From Calorimonas adulescens (lineage in GTDB: Bacteria > Bacillota > Thermoanaerobacteria > Thermoanaerobacterales > UBA4877), in contig NZ_VTPS01000022.1 of NCBI RefSeq assembly GCF_008274215.1, forward strand, positions 1 through 45,432: a DNA stretch of 45,432 nt, written 5' to 3'. The notes under the pieces were generated by a model. It was given only the letters and a program-made list of their open reading frames with translations. It ran no database searches and was not told the DNA's origin. The position numbers and the translations under genes are program-made. Below are positions 19,644 through 45,432 of this stretch, piece after piece (position 1 is the first letter of the stretch; each line of letters begins with the position of its first letter).

Positions 19644-19692
19644 AGATATAAATTGAGGGGAGTGCATCATGCACTCCCCTCAATTTATATCT
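19644..19692. terminator. Perfect 23-bp palindrome, terminator of the SLH-protein gene
   Basis: Two 23-base arms (19644-19666 and 19670-19692) match perfectly around a TCA loop. The inner GC-rich stem is GAGGGGAGTGCA/TGCACTCCCCTC, and it is followed in both directions by AATTTATAT. The right arm includes the last codons and stop of the SLH-protein gene. Confidence 0.8.
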
Positions 19693-21640
19693 CTACAAAT
19701 ACAAACTCTACAGGCAGGTAAGTGGACGCCGGGGGTATCCACCTGATGGTCATCTCTTCCCCTGCGGCTATCTCATCAATATACACACCCTGTGTAAATG
19801 GCCTTATAGGGTTCTTGGGGGCCATGAACCTGCCGCTCTTGCTTGTCCATATGGGGCCCTGATAGCTTCCTCCCTGCGCCAGAAGCACAATCCTCATGTT
19901 TCTCTCAGCCTTTACATGTATCTCGTACTCCAGCCCGTAATTTCCATTTAACTTTGCATCTTTATGCAGCATCTCGTCTTTTCCAGTAAGTGTAGGGTCC
20001 AGCGTACCATCAGCCAGGATAAGGGCCTGCATCCTATCCACATTTATATTAATAATCCTTTTTGTGCCGGTAAAGGTGCCCCTGTCATGGATATCGGGCT
20101 CGAGGCATGGCAGATCGTCTATCTTTTCCTCCGGGTCATTTATACCGCTGTACTTTTCTCCAAGTGCCACAAAATATACCTCCACTTCACCATCGGTTTC
20201 TATATCATATACCCCGTGGATGAGATTGTTGTATGTTACGGGCGTGTAGTAGTGGGTGGGTGAGAGGAGCTTGACCTCGCCCGGTTTTAAATTTATGGAT
20301 ACATTCAGGTTTTCGCTGTCTAAAAGCCCGTATGTAACCTCTGCGCCTATCTGGAGCCATCTCCATGACTCGTATCCCATCTCTGTGCCTCCAAGGTTGG
20401 CCCTTTTTATCCTGACGGTTACATCATCCTTACCAGTATTTTTTACAAAGACACCATACCTCAAGTTGTCAGGGAAGACCTCATTGTATAAAATCTGGTT
20501 GACGCAGTAATAATATAGCCTTGCTTTTCCATTCACCGAGGCTTTGTACTGTATTCCAGGTTCCTTTATGTACTCGGGTGAGTCAGAAAATATAAGGGTA
20601 TCCTGGTTGTCAATGGGGTTTACCTTAAGCTGGGGTATGCGGTTACCCACAAGACCTGTGGTGTCTATGACGTCACCTGGCCTGGCGTTTAATATCTGCA
20701 TCTTTATATTCTGACTGTAGCCGAATGCCTCTTCGTAGGACTTCTCTCTGTCGTTCATGGAGGGTATATACACTGTAGGACTTTCTCCCGAATACATATT
20801 GTTTGCATCAACAGCCTTCACAAAGTATTGGGGGCCGGCGTCGATATCGGGCGTCTCATCTACATATACGGTTTCTGCAGTGAAATTCAATAACTCCTCT
20901 TTGCCGTCTACAACCCGGTAAACAGCGTATTTTTTGGCACCGGGTGACGGAGTCCATTTTAAACTGACCCTGTTTGCGTCTATGCCTGTAATATACAGGT
21001 TTTCTGGCGGGGTTGGGCCGTTTTCAGGGTGATAAAACCGATAAAACAGGGTAGCGGCCTCGGCCCGTGTGAGGGTGTCCTGTGGACGAAAGCTGCCGTC
21101 TGGGTATCCGCCAGCAATCCCCAGCGCCTTGGCTGCATTGATAAAACCTCTTGCCCAAGGAGATATCTTTTTATCGTCAGTGTATCCTGTATTTTTATCG
21201 TTACCATCCTGCACCAGGGCTGATGCTGATGTGGTGGCTACGATAGCTGTTATGGCTTGCTCGCGGGTCAAAGGCTTATCTGGACCAAAGGTATATTCAG
21301 TCAAGCCGGTCATATAACCGGCTGCTACCACAGAATCTATGCCTGACTTTCCCCAGTAGTCAGCAGGGACGTCCCTAAAGGATGCAGGTTTTTCCGGGAT
21401 ATCAAGCCTGTAGACCCTGGCCATGATGTTGGCAAACTCTCCTCTTGTCACCTTGTCGTCGGGGCCAAACATTCCGTTTCCGCGTCCCCCCAGTATGCCC
21501 CTGTTGGTAAGGTCTGTAATGGCCTCTCTGGCCCATGAATTTTCAATGTCGGTGTATGGATATGAATTCTGGGCAAAGGCAAGAGCTGTGTTTGAAAAGA
21601 CTAATAGTATGGCTATAGCTATAATAAATTTTCTTTTCAT
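19685..21640 (-). CDS. S-layer homology domain surface protein with FN3-like domain
   Basis: A 651-residue exported protein. The signal peptide (about 1-23) ends ALAFAQ. Three SLH repeats follow (about 26-205; YTDIENSWAREAITDLTNRGI, FRDVPADYWGKSGIDSV, KKISPWARGFINAAKALGI, with TRGEFANIMAR, TREQAITAIV and TRAEAATLFYRF). They anchor the protein to pyruvylated wall polymer. A fibronectin-III-like domain covers about 211-295 (NRVSLKWTPSPGAKKYAVYR). The remaining 350 residues are beta-rich and not recognised. Upstream lies a tandem WalR/PhoB-type box at a fixed distance from a TATAAT, so the gene is probably controlled by the regulator at 30934. Confidence 0.9.
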   Translation of the reverse strand: MKRKFIIAIAILLVFSNTALAFAQNSYPYTDIENSWAREAITDLTNRGILGGRGNGMFGPDDKVTRGEFANIMARVYRLDIPEKPASFRDVPADYWGKSGIDSVVAAGYMTGLTEYTFGPDKPLTREQAITAIVATTSASALVQDGNDKNTGYTDDKKISPWARGFINAAKALGIAGGYPDGSFRPQDTLTRAEAATLFYRFYHPENGPTPPENLYITGIDANRVSLKWTPSPGAKKYAVYRVVDGKEELLNFTAETVYVDETPDIDAGPQYFVKAVDANNMYSGESPTVYIPSMNDREKSYEEAFGYSQNIKMQILNARPGDVIDTTGLVGNRIPQLKVNPIDNQDTLIFSDSPEYIKEPGIQYKASVNGKARLYYYCVNQILYNEVFPDNLRYGVFVKNTGKDDVTVRIKRANLGGTEMGYESWRWLQIGAEVTYGLLDSENLNVSINLKPGEVKLLSPTHYYTPVTYNNLIHGVYDIETDGEVEVYFVALGEKYSGINDPEEKIDDLPCLEPDIHDRGTFTGTKRIININVDRMQALILADGTLDPTLTGKDEMLHKDAKLNGNYGLEYEIHVKAERNMRIVLLAQGGSYQGPIWTSKSGRFMAPKNPIRPFTQGVYIDEIAAGEEMTIRWIPPASTYLPVEFVFVEI

Positions 21641-21663: not shown

Positions 21664-21707
21664 ATTATATCATTTTAATGTTACAGAAATATTACAGTTT
21701 AACTACA
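21664..21707 (-). promoter_or_regulatory. Promoter with tandem WalR/PhoB-type boxes, upstream of the SLH gene
   Basis: Reading the minus strand: TGTAGT (21707-21702), five bases, TGTAAT (21696-21691), five bases, TGTAAC (21685-21680), ten bases, then TATAAT (21669-21664). The last two hexamers match the published WalR consensus TGTWAH-N5-TGTWAH exactly. A further TGTAAT lies at 21727-21722, out of the 11-base register. Confidence 0.7.
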
Positions 21708-21851
21708 GATTGGTTAAAACTATTACAGGTGGTGCATCATAATGGTTGGCAGCTATATCAACTTCATCAGACTGGCATCAACGAGAGGCGCTTATATACC
21801 AGAATTGACGAACTTTTTATGCTAAATATCTAAAAATATTCGGATTAGCTA

Positions 21852-30375: not shown

Positions 30376-30437
30376 TTTTGCCTTGAGACCTTGTATACGA
30401 TGATAATGACATAAACTGGATTATACTTCTATTAGAC

Positions 30438-30485
30438 AAAGCCCCCGAATGTCTATATAATTGAAATGTAGATAAGGGGGCTTTT
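30438..30485 (+). promoter_or_regulatory. Hairpin that can mask the Shine-Dalgarno of the next gene
   Basis: AAAGCCCCC (30438-30446) pairs with GGGGGCTTT (30476-30484). The 3' arm holds the GGGGG that would serve the ATG at 30489. It may terminate transcription from the M23 gene (TTTT follows) or gate translation. Confidence 0.5.
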
Positions 30486-30488
30486 CTC

Positions 30489-30887
30489 ATGAAAAGACTT
30501 TCTTCCGCTTTGCTTTTAGTGATAGCGCTATTTTTTACGTTTGAGCTTACACACCTCATTGTAGACGATATTGCAAAGGGAAATTATCCTGTGTGTTTTA
30601 CGGAGGGCGTGGCCCTGTTAGAGGAATACAGAATAAATGGATTTATGTGGGGAGATAGCCTGGATGGTGATGACCATCCGTATAAAGTGGAAGAACTTAC
30701 CAGTTCATTTAACTACCTGGATGCGGAAAAGGCATACAGGCGTTCTTTTGAGATAGTGAAAGGCATATCTGATGAAAAAGGTTTTACCGCTGTTTTGGAT
30801 GTTATAAAATATTTAGGCGAGGGGAAGAGCTTTCCATCGGCGATTGATGCGATAGAGCTGGAAATAAATTATCTTGACAGCTTTTAG
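30489..30887 (+). pseudogene. Internal-deletion derivative of a peptidase-MA-like metallopeptidase
   Basis: The 132-residue frame begins like a signal peptide (MKRLSSALLLVIALFFTF) and runs straight into FELTHLIVDDIAKGN, then CFTEGVALLEEY. This looks like the zinc motif HExTH...TEG of peptidase-MA/gluzincin proteins, but the first histidine is Phe and the region of 100 or more residues that should lie before the motif is absent. The C-terminal part (KAYRRSFEIVKGISDEKGF, YLGEGKSF) looks intact. The protein could still be made and exported but would lack a complete metal site. The alternative is an unrelated small secreted protein. Family assignment is from pattern memory, not a search. Confidence 0.6.
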
Positions 30888-30933: not shown

Positions 30934-31620
30934 ATGGAGTCGAAGATACTGGTAGTGGATGATGAAAAGCCGATAGTTGACATACTCAAGTATAACCTCG
31001 AAAAGGATGGCTACAAGGTCCTTATAGCCTATGATGGCGAAGAGGCTATCAGGATTGCCACATCGGAAGAACCGGACCTTATTTTACTGGATATAATGCT
31101 GCCGAAGATAGACGGTTTTTCTGTATGCAAGACATTGAGGCAAAAATTAAACACCCCCATATTGATGGTGACTGCTAAAGAGGAAGAGGTTGACAAGGTG
31201 CTGGGTTTAGAGCTCGGGGCCGATGATTATATTGTAAAGCCGTTTAGCATGAGGGAGCTTGCTGCCAGGATTAAGGCCAATTTAAGAAGAGTACAGATGA
31301 GTGAGGATGCAGACGGCAAGTCAATAACATATGGGGATTTGGTGATAGATTTAGACAAGTATGTGGTCAGAAAAAAAGGCAAGCAGATTGATCTCACCTC
31401 CAGAGAGTTTGAGCTACTTAAATTTCTGGCTATTAACAAGGGTCAGGTCTTTTCAAGAGATACGCTTTTAGAAAAGGTATGGGGTTATGAATACTATGGT
31501 GATATGAGGACTGTAGACGTCACCATAAGGAGGCTGAGAGAGAAGATAGAAGAAGACCCGGGCAGTCCTCGGTACATATGTACTAAGAGAGGTGTTGGTT
31601 ATTACTTCGGTGAAGAGTAA
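30934..31620 (+). CDS. walR: WalR-type (YycF) response regulator
   Basis: A 228-residue OmpR/PhoB regulator: acidic pocket D9/D10, phospho-acceptor D53 ([11 protein letters not shown]), T80, K102 (IVKPFS), and a winged helix at about 130-228 ([35 protein letters not shown]). Gene context (walK, yycH, yycI, walJ, htrA, rlmH) identifies it as WalR rather than PhoP, though PhoP/PhoB naming would also fit by sequence. It would control wall metabolism. The ATG at 30934 follows GGGGTG. It overlaps the kinase gene by 14 bases. Confidence 0.88.
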
Positions 31621-33361
31621 GGGGTATTTAAGTATTCAATGGAAAATTGTTACCATTTACATACTCCTCATACTGGTGGCAATGGAGATAGCCGGTTATT
31701 ATATCCTCAGGTCTTTCGACGATTATGAGAAGGATAAACTGCTTGCGCAGTTGCAGTCGCAGGCTGCCAATCTATCATGGACATTTAAGGATAACCTCTC
31801 AAACGCTGATATAAATGATGTCAAGGATATATATATCTATCAGGGTTCTGACCTCAAGAGCATATACATACTTGACCGAGATGGGAGGGTAATTACAGGC
31901 ACCGATAATAGTGTTACCCGACTGCTTACCCCTGCAGTGATGGCAGCCTTTAAGGGTTCTGCCACCAAGGAGGATGGCGAGGATGCTGCTACCGGAGAGG
32001 GACTCTTGAGCCTTGCGTGGCCGATAAAAAATTCCGACGGGATAGTGGAGGGTGCTGTCTATCTTACGGCCTCAACAAGAAGTATTAATTCCACCTTAAA
32101 TGACGTAAGGGTTATCCTCTTGGGTGCTACTGCCGTTGCCATGGGTATTACGGCAGCCCTTGGTTTTTTGCTGTCTAAGACTATAGCTGACCCTGTGAAA
32201 GAGGTTACAGACAAGGCAGAGAGTATAGCTGCCGGTAATTTTAACGAGAGGGTCAATGTAAGGTCCAATGATGAGATAGGCAAACTGGGAGAAATGTTCA
32301 ATTACATGAGCGACCGTATAGTGGATATGTTGGATGAGATAGCAAGGGATAAGAGCAGGGACGAGGCCATTTTAAAGTATATGAGCGACGGTGTTGTGGC
32401 CATAAAGCGGGATGGTACAATATTGGTGGCCAATATTGCCGCCAGGCAGTTCTTGGGGAGAGATATATTTGAGGGGGATAATTTCTTTGATATTGTAGAT
32501 GAGTACAACGGCCAGGCTGTGGCCGATGCCTTTGAGGACGCAGGTGCACATGAGGTTACGTTGAATACCGGCAGGTTTATCTTAAACATACACACAGCAG
32601 CCTTCAAGAATGAAAAAGGAGAGACTGAGGGGTTTGTCGTGGTTATGCACGATATAACTGAGCAGCAGAAGTTGGATAATATGCGGAAGGAATTTGTCGC
32701 CAATGTATCCCACGAGCTCAAGACCCCTATTACCACCATCAAGAGCTATGCAGAGACTTTGTTAGATGGGGCATTGGAAGACAAAGAGGTCTCCGTTAAG
32801 TTCCTTGATGTGATTAATAAAGAAGTAGACAGGATGGACAGGCTTGTGAGGGACCTCTTGCAGCTTTCCAGGATAGATGATAACCGGGAGAAGTGGTTTT
32901 TTGAGGATACTGACATAACTGAGCTTGTGAAGGGCAGCGTAGAGAAGATAAAGGTGTTGGCTGAAGAAAAAGAGCAGGAAATTATGATAGACTTTAGGGA
33001 TAGGGTTCATGCCATGGTTGACAGGGACAGGATGGACCAGGTACTTTTAAATGTATTTAGCAATGCCATTAAATATACTCCTGAGGGTGGCCGCATTGAT
33101 GTAAGGGTGTATGAGGATGGAGAGTGGGCTGTAATATTGGTAAAGGACAACGGGGTTGGCATACCAGAGGAGGATATTCCCCATCTGTTTGAGAGGTTTT
33201 ACCGTGTAGATAAGGCTAGGTCAAGGGAGATGGGTGGTACCGGCCTTGGGCTTTCTATAGCCAAAGAGATTGTGGATGCCCATAAGGGTAGGATAATAAT
33301 AGAAAGTGAGATAAATGTGGGTACGGAGGTTAAGATTTACCTTCCTTCCATAACTATGTAA
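31607..33361 (+). CDS. walK: WalK-type (YycG) sensor histidine kinase
   Basis: A 584-residue kinase with the full WalK layout: TM1 (about 13-32), an extracytoplasmic sensor region (about 35-162), TM2 (about 166-188), HAMP (about 189-243), PAS (about 250-350), HisKA with H368 in [11 protein letters not shown], and HATPase (N box [12 protein letters not shown]1 KDNGVGIP, G2 [10 protein letters not shown]). GTG at 31607 is chosen because it precedes the conserved SIQWKIV start; TTG at 31592 is an alternative. It pairs with WalR and is expected to be modulated by the YycH/YycI proteins encoded downstream. Confidence 0.92.
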
Positions 33362-33367
33362 TCATAA

Positions 33368-33411
33368 TGTAAAGCAACTGTAACATGGCTGTAACATATT
33401 ATATATATAAT
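33368..33411 (+). promoter_or_regulatory. Promoter with three tandem WalR/PhoB-type boxes, upstream of the 33447 gene
   Basis: TGTAAA (33368-33373), five bases, TGTAAC (33379-33384), five bases, TGTAAC (33390-33395), ten bases, TATAAT (33406-33411). Each adjacent pair matches TGTWAH-N5-TGTWAH. There is no separate -35 hexamer, as expected for a promoter activated through the boxes. Confidence 0.75.
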
Positions 33412-33446: not shown

Positions 33447-33851
33447 ATGAGAAGGATAACAGCTTTATTGATTGCAGTACTATTGCTTATGGCATCCTCT
33501 CCTGCCTTTGCTGATGGAACGGAAATACAGCTCCTGCATTTAAATTCCACTTTGCCTGCGACTACTGACCAGGCTGTATATACCATATCAGGCAAGGTGG
33601 ATGAAGGGACCTCCGTAGAGGTAAAGCTTAACAACGCAGATTTATATAAACCCGACATTGGCCCTTTTGGTATGTTCTACCAGTCAGTTAACCTCAAGAT
33701 GGGTAAGAATTCTATCGATATTACAGCCAGAAAGGGCGGTCTCGTTCAGGTCATCAAATGTCTTATAACCAGGAAGGACAACAATGAGCCTGTCAAAAAA
33801 CTTGAACTGAGTCCTGAGTTAAAGGAGGCCATCAGCATCAGCTTTAAATAA
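33447..33851 (+). CDS. Small secreted protein with an Ig-like fold, wal-associated
   Basis: A 134-residue protein with a clear signal peptide (about 1-23, cut after ...SSPAFA). The mature part has the pattern of a bacterial Ig-like domain (VYTISGKVDEGTSVEVKLNN, FGMFYQSVNLKMGKNSIDIT), followed by a short C-terminal tail. It lies between walK and yycH, behind its own promoter with three WalR-type boxes, so it is probably a target and perhaps an accessory of the wal system. I do not recognise a named family. The ATG follows AGGAGAGAGGG. Confidence 0.75.
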   Translation: MRRITALLIAVLLLMASSPAFADGTEIQLLHLNSTLPATTDQAVYTISGKVDEGTSVEVKLNNADLYKPDIGPFGMFYQSVNLKMGKNSIDITARKGGLVQVIKCLITRKDNNEPVKKLELSPELKEAISISFK

Positions 33852-33883
33852 GTTTTGCGCCGGGGATTGTGAGGATGATATTG

Positions 33884-35143
33884 ATGTCAGAGAGAGCCAG
33901 GACCACACTGCTTGTTTTTTTAGTAGTATTGAGTATTATACTGAGCTTTTTTATGTGGTATGGCATGACCTGGCCATATGTATCATCCCCAACTGGCAAC
34001 GTCCAGGAAATCTCCCCGGCTATTTTATTGAACATTTTAAAGCCTGAAAAAATTATTATAAATTTCGGTGGGACGACCCATACCACCATGCTGGAAAACA
34101 ACAGTTTTGATGCCTCATGGAGGGAATTTCAGAACATTGTCTTTTCTGACAGCGGCAATCCAACAACTGTTACAGAGACTGAATTTATGAATGCCATGAG
34201 TTACAGGTCTATAATGTATATGTTTGCGTTTCCAATACCTTTATCCTATTTTAATGATGCCTATGGCAAGGAAATAAATATCCCAGTTGATACCGTAAAG
34301 GATGTCATTATCTTAGCAGGAAACAGCCCTTCATTTTACATATATGATGGCTTTGATAAATACATCAGGATGAACATGGGCTATAAAAACAATGGAATAG
34401 AGACCATCATTTCTGTAAAGGAGGACAATGCTCCCCTGTATTCTACTGCTGGCGACCTTGGGTTTACTGACAAGATGCATTATGATGTTCTTATGCCTTT
34501 GGATATAAGCAAAATAGACATACCCGTGATTGGTGTGAGGAAACCTGACAACATTGAGATGAATACACTTGTTTCTAAGTTTTTTGACAGTGGAAGCATG
34601 GTGAGGAGGATTAATGAGGTTTCTGGCGATACAGTGTTTACCGATGGGGAAAGGGGGCTTAAGATATATACTGACGGGCGGCTGGAGTATACGTACAGCG
34701 CGACGTCTTCTGCCCGTTTAGATGATGTTACATCAATAAAGATAGCCACTGAATTCCTTTCAAGATATATCACAAATATGAACAATGTAAGTCTGGGGGG
34801 TATTGTTGAGGGAAAAGATGGTTATACCATAAATTATAACTTGAGGTATAATGGGCTGCCTGTATATAGCAGACAGTATGGATACCCCTTTATCGTTGAG
34901 GTAAAAGGTAAAGAGGTTGTTTCGTTTAAAACTGCCGGACTGGATTTTATGCCTCTTGGTTCTTCTACAAGGATATTTGTGGGTGCACTGGATGCCATGG
35001 ACGCTTCATTAGCAAAGGGCATAGAATACTGGGAGTCACTTGATATGTGCTATGTTGTGGATATGGGGAAGGTAAGAGCAGCATGGAGGGCATCCGACGG
35101 TGAACATACAGTATATGTCGACATGGAAAATGATAATATGTGA
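33884..35143 (+). CDS. yycH: YycH-like regulator of the WalRK system
   Basis: A 419-residue protein with one N-terminal membrane helix (about 6-27) and a large extracytoplasmic part. Size, topology, position after walRK and the following yycI fit YycH, which interacts with WalK in the membrane. Motifs are weakly conserved in this family; YGMTWPYVSSP after the anchor and the ending VRAAWRASDGEHTVYVDME are suggestive. ATG at 33884 is preferred, with GAGG 9 bases upstream; further starts lie at 33869 and 33875. Confidence 0.78.
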   Translation: MSERARTTLLVFLVVLSIILSFFMWYGMTWPYVSSPTGNVQEISPAILLNILKPEKIIINFGGTTHTTMLENNSFDASWREFQNIVFSDSGNPTTVTETEFMNAMSYRSIMYMFAFPIPLSYFNDAYGKEINIPVDTVKDVIILAGNSPSFYIYDGFDKYIRMNMGYKNNGIETIISVKEDNAPLYSTAGDLGFTDKMHYDVLMPLDISKIDIPVIGVRKPDNIEMNTLVSKFFDSGSMVRRINEVSGDTVFTDGERGLKIYTDGRLEYTYSATSSARLDDVTSIKIATEFLSRYITNMNNVSLGGIVEGKDGYTINYNLRYNGLPVYSRQYGYPFIVEVKGKEVVSFKTAGLDFMPLGSSTRIFVGALDAMDASLAKGIEYWESLDMCYVVDMGKVRAAWRASDGEHTVYVDMENDNM

Positions 35144-35152
35144 GGTATGGCT

Positions 35153-35962
35153 ATGGACTGGCTGAGAGCAAAAAATATCCTTATAGTCACATTTATTGTA
35201 ATTGATGTCATGCTGCTTGTCAGTGTATTCATGAACTATGGTGTGATTGAGCCATTAAAGGAAAAGCAAGAGGCAGAGGATGCATTGAATATATTGAAAA
35301 GTGCAGGAGTTCAGATTGAGACGGAGGTACCTCAGAAGACGCCGGCCATGGCTCTCTTAAGGGTGGAGCTTTACGATTATAATTCTAAAAACTTGATAAA
35401 TAGGATACTGTCTGGTGGTTATTCGGAAGAAATATCAGGGGATGAACATGTATATAAGACTCTTACAGAGGTGCTTACTGTAGCACCGAATGGAGATCTT
35501 TATTATAAGAGTATGGTCCCCTTGATCTTTAACGTCAGTATTGAGGAAGGGCTTCTAAACTTTTTAACCAGTAAAGGCCTGGCCGAGCCTGGTATGTATA
35601 TAGATAGTGTGGAGAAACAGGGTGATACATATATTGTAAAGATTACCCATCAGGTTGATGGATATTTTCTTGATATAAGCTATATGCAGGCTAAGATAGG
35701 ACCCCACAACATTGAAATAGTAAAGCACTGGTTAAAACCGGTTGGATATCTGCAGCAGAGGAAGAGAGTAGTACCTGCATATAAGGCGCTCCTCAGTTTT
35801 ATGAGCGGTGTACAGGCCCCAACAACAGTAAAGGATGTAAAGCTTGGGTACTATTTCAGGTGGGACGAGGCAGCATCCGGTGAGGCCGTCCCGGTATGGC
35901 GTATATCTACTGATGGGGATGTCTATTATTTTAATGCTTATACAGGAAAACCAGAAAGATGA
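35153..35962 (+). CDS. yycI: YycI-like regulator of the WalRK system
   Basis: A 269-residue protein with an N-terminal membrane anchor starting MDWLRAKNILIVTFIVIDVMLL in substance (seen as MDWLRAKNIL), which is the typical YycI opening, and an extracytoplasmic domain ending PVWRISTDGDVYYFNAYTG. Together with YycH it is expected to adjust WalK activity. The ATG at 35153 lies 7 bases after GAGG; the in-frame ATG at 35147 is too close to that site. An intrinsic terminator follows. Confidence 0.82.
   Translation: MDWLRAKNILIVTFIVIDVMLLVSVFMNYGVIEPLKEKQEAEDALNILKSAGVQIETEVPQKTPAMALLRVELYDYNSKNLINRILSGGYSEEISGDEHVYKTLTEVLTVAPNGDLYYKSMVPLIFNVSIEEGLLNFLTSKGLAEPGMYIDSVEKQGDTYIVKITHQVDGYFLDISYMQAKIGPHNIEIVKHWLKPVGYLQQRKRVVPAYKALLSFMSGVQAPTTVKDVKLGYYFRWDEAASGEAVPVWRISTDGDVYYFNAYTGKPER

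Positions 35963-45330: not shown

Positions 45331-45432
<102 letters not shown>

Follow-up and report, generated by a model that had tools for sequence, protein, structure and literature searches.

The wal locus and the array within it

The window, meaning the whole stretch of 45,432 nucleotides of Calorimonas adulescens that was analysed (contig NZ_VTPS01000022.1), carries the genes of WalRK, an essential and widely conserved signalling system of Gram-positive bacteria and a drug target. The genes were identified by Pfam and NCBIfam, and all lie on the forward strand:

30934..31620, +, walR (yycF), response regulator; above the cut-off of NCBIfam NF040534 (resp_reg_YycF), with the recognition helix of the solved WalR/YycF structures
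31592..33361, +, walK (yycG), sensor kinase with Cache, HAMP, PAS, HisKA and HATPase domains; best NCBIfam model HK_WalK, below its cut-off
33447..33851, +, small secreted protein of 134 aa with a signal peptide, an Ig-like domain and a C-terminal helix; first gene behind the promoter described below
33869..35143, +, yycH (walH); Pfam PF07435, E 6.5e-13, 48.9 bits (cut-off 27)
35147..35962, +, yycI (walI); Pfam PF09648, E 8.6e-15, 55.4 bits (cut-off 29.7)

Both yycH and yycI thus score above the Pfam gathering score and lie downstream of walK. The secreted protein is given no family name by Pfam or NCBIfam. Its Ig-like core is predicted with pLDDT >90; an assignment as glucodextranase domain B was rejected, as PF09136 reaches 20.7 bits, below the cut-off of 27, leaving a generic Ig-like fold. 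A Foldseek search against solved structures likewise returned only generic Ig-like domain matches, so no function was drawn from the fold. Its constant genomic place suggests instead that the protein is likely a component of the WalK-YycHI system.

Upstream, walR is preceded by a 132-aa reading frame (30489-30887) that has no NCBIfam match, and this frame by a near-consensus promoter, TAGACA-17-TATAAT, at 30433-30461, which is the probable source of basal wal transcription. The window ends with the start of a 16S rRNA gene (45331-45432, Rfam RF00177), the contig breaking at an rRNA operon.

The 85-bp gap between walK and the gene of the secreted protein is occupied by an array of four boxes and a -10 element:

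33357..33362, +, box 1, TGTAAT; holds the walK stop codon TAA (33359-33361)
33368..33373, +, box 2, TGTAAA; mostly YTTAAH in the relatives
33379..33384, +, box 3, TGTAAC
33390..33395, +, box 4, TGTAAC; followed by A at 33396 (seventh-position A)
33406..33411, +, -10 element TATAAT, 10 bases 3' of box 4, with no -35 hexamer

The four TGTWAH boxes follow one another with a period of exactly 11 bp, then come N10 and TATAAT. The original prediction had described only three boxes, those at 33368, 33379 and 33390; these and their exact 11-bp steps are present, but the fourth, upstream box at 33357 had been missed. Its other particulars hold: ten bases separate the last box from TATAAT, and the boxes fit the WalR consensus, with three overlapping exact matches to the direct repeat TGTWAH-N5-TGTWAH at 33357, 33368 and 33379. 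A -35 element is indeed missing, as the best hexamer 16-18 bp upstream of TATAAT matches TTGACA at one position out of six, and across 15 homologous promoters the mean match is 1.67/6, compared with 2.60/6 in random AT-rich sequence. No terminator-like site was found between walK and the gene of the secreted protein.

Specificity and conservation of the array

Sites were scored, out of 30, against a template consisting of four boxes, N10 and TATAAT. The wal-locus site is a perfect match (30/30), compared with a maximum of 24 in 60 first-order Markov (dinucleotide) simulations of the whole window on both strands, and none of 20,000 simulations of local AT-rich sequence reached 26. Only three window sites exceed the simulation maximum: this one (33357, +), an overlapping shift of it, and a site on the opposite strand (21718, -) that is taken up below. 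The template found no box upstream of walR in the window. Throughout the 2.59-Mb genome, six sites match the full template with at most three mismatches, four of them with at most one, and the reversed control gives none in either case.

Shorter patterns were less informative. The two-box consensus alone is weak evidence, with 36 exact pairs in the genome versus 27 for the reversed control, and was dropped as a genome-wide argument; two boxes with N10 and TATAAT at three mismatches were also dropped, being swamped by chance (287 versus 238). The exact form of the latter pattern occurs 59 times in 37 related genomes versus twice for the control.

In four families of the class, the array sits in the interval that follows walK and precedes the secreted gene, and its spacing does not vary. 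In ten representatives of these families the box columns are conserved at 0.93 and the spacers at 0.60; in more distant families the four boxes and N10 are kept and the -10 element is weaker (e.g., TAAACT). Since a scan with YycH found no relative, the species scan was carried out with the DNA pattern itself, exactly and without gene information, on 84,980 species genomes. It returned at least 119 stretches, of which 80 were listed as loci, against a chance expectation of fewer than 0.1 hits for the whole collection; the pattern was derived from wal-locus sites and so favours their variants over other WalR sites. The matches listed include Thermoanaerobacterium, Thermoanaerobacter, Alkaliphilus, Tepidibacter, Caloranaerobacter, Acetivibrio, Lutispora, Fusibacter and Acetoanaerobium. 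The promoter element is thus conserved over much of the Clostridia.

In 72 of the 80 loci listed, the array precedes a unit made of the secreted protein, yycH and yycI, and mostly overlaps or abuts the end of walK, which in 68 of these 72 falls no more than 69 bases upstream or 16 bases downstream of the first base of box 1; the walK stop lies inside box 1, as in the host, in 30 of 69 homologous loci. One of the 72 has an extra gene in between, another is located at the edge of a contig and is followed by yycHI, and two (L300, an Anaerovorax odorimutans MAG, and L308, a Peptostreptococcaceae MAG) carry the unit away from walRK with the promoter kept. An iterated profile search placed the first downstream gene in one secreted family in all 69 readable listed loci and in none of the 571 other frames there; the first round accepted 47 of the 69, shared signal peptides add to the scores, and the iteration took in weak initial scorers. 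The original prediction had named the small secreted protein and yycHI as the targets, which stands, with the refinement that, of these targets, the secreted protein comes first and is the most constant.

The genomes that depart from this arrangement indicate to which genes the promoter belongs. Neither the secreted gene nor the internal boxes are present in G046, G054, G055 and G057, whose walK and yycH are directly adjacent or overlap. The same is true of G041, in which walK and yycH overlap and a four-box promoter with N10 and TATAAT lies before walR instead (L183, 480-745); this placement suggests that the whole wal operon may be autoregulated there. An unrelated gene separates walK from the array in G077, where the array keeps its place next to the secreted gene, while G011 has lost yycHI and kept the secreted gene with its promoter. 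These cases, together with L300 and L308, tie the promoter to the secreted-yycHI unit. In G011, a 13-kb stretch also lies between walK and the secreted gene (L148, L149; C1 1936993, 1950072), and the promoter, about 80 bp, is duplicated on both its sides.

The probable regulator and its co-targets

The site at 21718 is a second complete promoter within the window:

21664..21718, -, four boxes, N10 and TATAAT; template 28/30, conserved in the same-family genome G001
19685..21640, -, gene of an SLH-domain (S-layer-type) protein behind this promoter; Pfam PF00395, E 5.7e-40

The targets of the host sites with at most one mismatch are the secreted-protein/yycHI unit, two SLH genes and one Amidase_3 gene. 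One such site lies 5' of a gene with SLH and PrcB_C domains (contig C2), and another 5' of the Amidase_3 gene (contig C11), an N-acetylmuramoyl-L-alanine amidase that also has AMIN and copper-amine-oxidase-N domains; all four sites are kept in G001. In other families of the class, the template stands before Amidase_3 genes, a membrane acyltransferase, NAGPA phosphodiester glycosidases and an SLH polysaccharide deacetylase, and one Amidase_3 gene elsewhere in the class has, with reading frames assigned by inspection, the same downstream neighbours as the C11 gene. The co-targets of the host are a gene set of the WalR kind: those under positive control of WalR in C. difficile include S-layer proteins and the amidases cwp16 and cwp17 (PMC9210968). 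Judged from the DNA, the host sites mark a WalR-like cell-envelope regulon.

Some other sites were noticed along the way. Upstream of the gene of a 947-aa SLH protein (L094 5200-5260, G000 C6), three boxes stand in reverse orientation together with -35-like and -10-like hexamers; these boxes could serve PhoP, or WalR acting differently. Thermoanaerobacter-like genomes and G029 have four-box or two-box sites with N10 and TATAAT (L140, L141, L142, L150, L152, L233) near the end of a P-type ATPase gene, with a hairpin-like sequence (e.g., GAGCAGGATTTCTCCTGCTC) about 20-60 nt past them, and are candidates for a short WalR-driven RNA or for a mobile-element remnant. In uncultured gut Clostridia (L269, L286, L297, L298, L306, L313, L319, L338), the exact promoter pattern precedes, away from the wal locus, the gene of a protein of about 360 aa with a HECIH motif, metalloprotease-like; the one member checked has no Pfam family.

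As for the protein that reads the boxes, the regulator encoded at 30934 has the recognition helix of S. aureus WalR (2zxj) and, with one I/V exchange, of B. subtilis YycF (2d1v), and the helix RTVDVT[IV]RRLREK recurs, apart from this exchange, in every wal locus examined. Furthermore, all 72 homologous promoters have an A directly past box 4, at a position that the search pattern left free; S. mutans VicR prefers TGTWAHA, with an extra A past the hexamer (PMC4168254), so this base is an independent hint of WalR. The array combines the direct repeat, a specificity above chance, an encoded WalR with the conserved helix and envelope co-targets, which are the features of a WalR regulon, and on such sequence evidence it is almost certainly read by WalR.

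The genome encodes eight OmpR-family DNA-binding domains, and the boxes might in principle be read by another member. The nearest candidate is PhoP, whose half-sites resemble those of WalR, so that cross-binding between the two OmpR-family regulators is possible, and which belongs to a full phoPR-pst locus in the genome; on contig C9 a response regulator, a kinase, pstS, pstC, pstA, pstB and phoU were recognised by inspection. The secreted protein and yycHI would then be part of the Pho regulon, alone or shared with WalR. We consider this quite unlikely: the pst genes have TTWACA-N5-TTWACA on the coding strand, the orientation opposite to that of the wal-locus boxes, as seen before pstS and pstC (L095 2300-2470 and 3560-3650, G000 C9), and the four-box + N10 template picks up none of them. 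The wal-locus array lacks such coding-strand repeats, its co-targets are envelope rather than phosphate genes, and the recognition helix of the Pho regulator, RTVDVHIRHLRRK, is unlike that of WalR. Binding by the regulator encoded at 2367, or by any other of the eight, is highly improbable, as the helix of the 2367 regulator, RTVDTHIKQLREK, also differs from WalR and the promoter is conserved in all families along with the adjoining walR, a linkage known for no other regulator.

Even if WalR is the reader, it might bind to silence an otherwise constitutive promoter, in the way that it represses some targets, such as iseA in B. subtilis (PMC7299342). This seems unlikely at a promoter that lacks the -35 element needed for constitutive activity and whose boxes stop upstream of the -10, covering neither it nor the start site; the same geometry is also found at genes for amidases and S-layer-type proteins, both of them classes under WalR activation in other bacteria. 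That the array is a chance similarity, the genes being simply read through from walRK, agrees with the AT-richness of the gap and with the lack of a terminator between walK and the secreted-yycHI unit. Its probability is nevertheless negligible, given that simulated sequence never approached 30/30 and that the same array recurs at the same place, with invariant spacing, across Clostridia. Thus, the array is very probably a WalR-dependent promoter, class II-like with PhoB-like geometry, that lies inside the wal locus and would drive the secreted protein, YycH and YycI.

A candidate feedback loop and known systems

In the mechanism proposed here, two dimers of WalR~P would occupy the four half-sites, spaced by 11 bp and lying on the same face of the helix, with a strong dimer site at boxes 3 and 4 and a second one at boxes 1 and 2. 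WalR~P would substitute for the absent -35 and bring RNA polymerase to the TATAAT that lies 10 bp further downstream, with production of the secreted Ig-like protein, YycH and YycI. As walR and walK have no boxes and would be read from the upstream promoter, the output of WalR would feed back on the modulators of WalK and not on the levels of WalR and WalK: the modulators would be made in proportion to WalR output, with walRK itself not self-regulated. The lack of a terminator-like site in the interval means that yycHI probably also receive basal read-through. Moreover, since the same switch is found at S-layer-domain and amidase genes, the dose of the WalK modulators may track the envelope-remodelling programme.

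That YycH and YycI interact with WalK and modulate it is known from B. subtilis and S. aureus only. YycHI inhibit WalK in B. subtilis and stimulate it in S. aureus (PMC10746227), and by analogy the loop would be negative in the first case and positive in the second. The original claim that WalR activates the genes for the modulators of its own kinase is supported, as regards control by WalR, by the boxes, the recognition helix, the envelope co-targets and the conserved place; WalR binding, activation, the loop's sign and the part played by the secreted protein are matters of inference. A broader reading, held tentatively and with a confidence just short of even, is that WalRK of the Clostridia is a self-regulating module, in which WalR drives YycHI and a third WalK-associated factor, the secreted Ig-like protein, acting as an envelope sensor or as a secreted ligand of WalK/YycHI, and that the loop-less walRKHI of the Bacilli is a derived or alternative state.

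A conserved secreted protein emerges as a new and likely component of the WalRK system, and the template offers a high-specificity DNA signature for WalR regulons in anaerobes that have no mapped ones. No description of WalR control of yycHI in Clostridia, of the wal-locus promoter or of the secreted family was found in the open-access papers that were searched, and the locus appears to use a binding site of familiar type in a circuit that they do not report for WalRK.

The geometry itself has a familiar counterpart. In E. coli, activator-dependent promoters of the PhoB type have tandem 11-bp TGT half-sites located 10 bp upstream of the -10 element, in place of the -35. The wal-locus promoter is alike in geometry and different in regulator and regulon, and the pst boxes of the host are oppositely oriented to its WalR-type boxes; accordingly, the "Pho-type" label of the original prediction is apt for the geometry only.

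The closest relatives of the boxes are the sites of WalR (YycF/VicR) in B. subtilis, S. aureus and S. mutans (TGTWAH-N5-TGTWAH), which share the half-site, the 11-bp period, the direct-repeat orientation, the seventh-position A, the adjoining WalR with the same recognition helix and the cell-wall co-targets. Unlike these, the array described here doubles the number of half-sites from two to four, keeps a constant N10 between the last of them and the -10 element, and has its target inside the wal locus. The gene content and order, walR-walK-yycH-yycI, are those of walRKHI of S. aureus and of the wal operon of B. subtilis, where yycHI are co-transcribed with walRK, whereas here the unit is split off by the inserted secreted gene and the WalR-type promoter. 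In S. aureus, walRKHI is one operon with no WalR site in its promoter and no autoregulation, and walK and walH overlap (PMC4801191), which leaves no room for an internal promoter; a review table marks S. aureus WalRK as "auto" with no detail given (PMC8774646).

The wal operon of C. difficile (walA-walR-walK-truA2) is also reported as not autoregulated (PMC9210968). It resembles the host system in that WalR acts on S-layer proteins and amidases and that the locus has an extra exported accessory protein (PMC9210968), and differs from it in having no yycHI in the operon. Against such published statements that wal operons are not autoregulated, kinase modulators placed under WalR would constitute a directly testable feedback loop. 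A precedent for this logic, i.e., a WalR-driven modulator of WalK, is the negative feedback loop of WalKR and SpdC in S. aureus: the gene of SpdC is activated by WalR, and its product, a membrane protein, in turn acts on WalK (PMC5854430). SpdC, which has an Abi domain, is unrelated to the targets here, namely YycH, YycI and the secreted Ig-like protein encoded beside walK.
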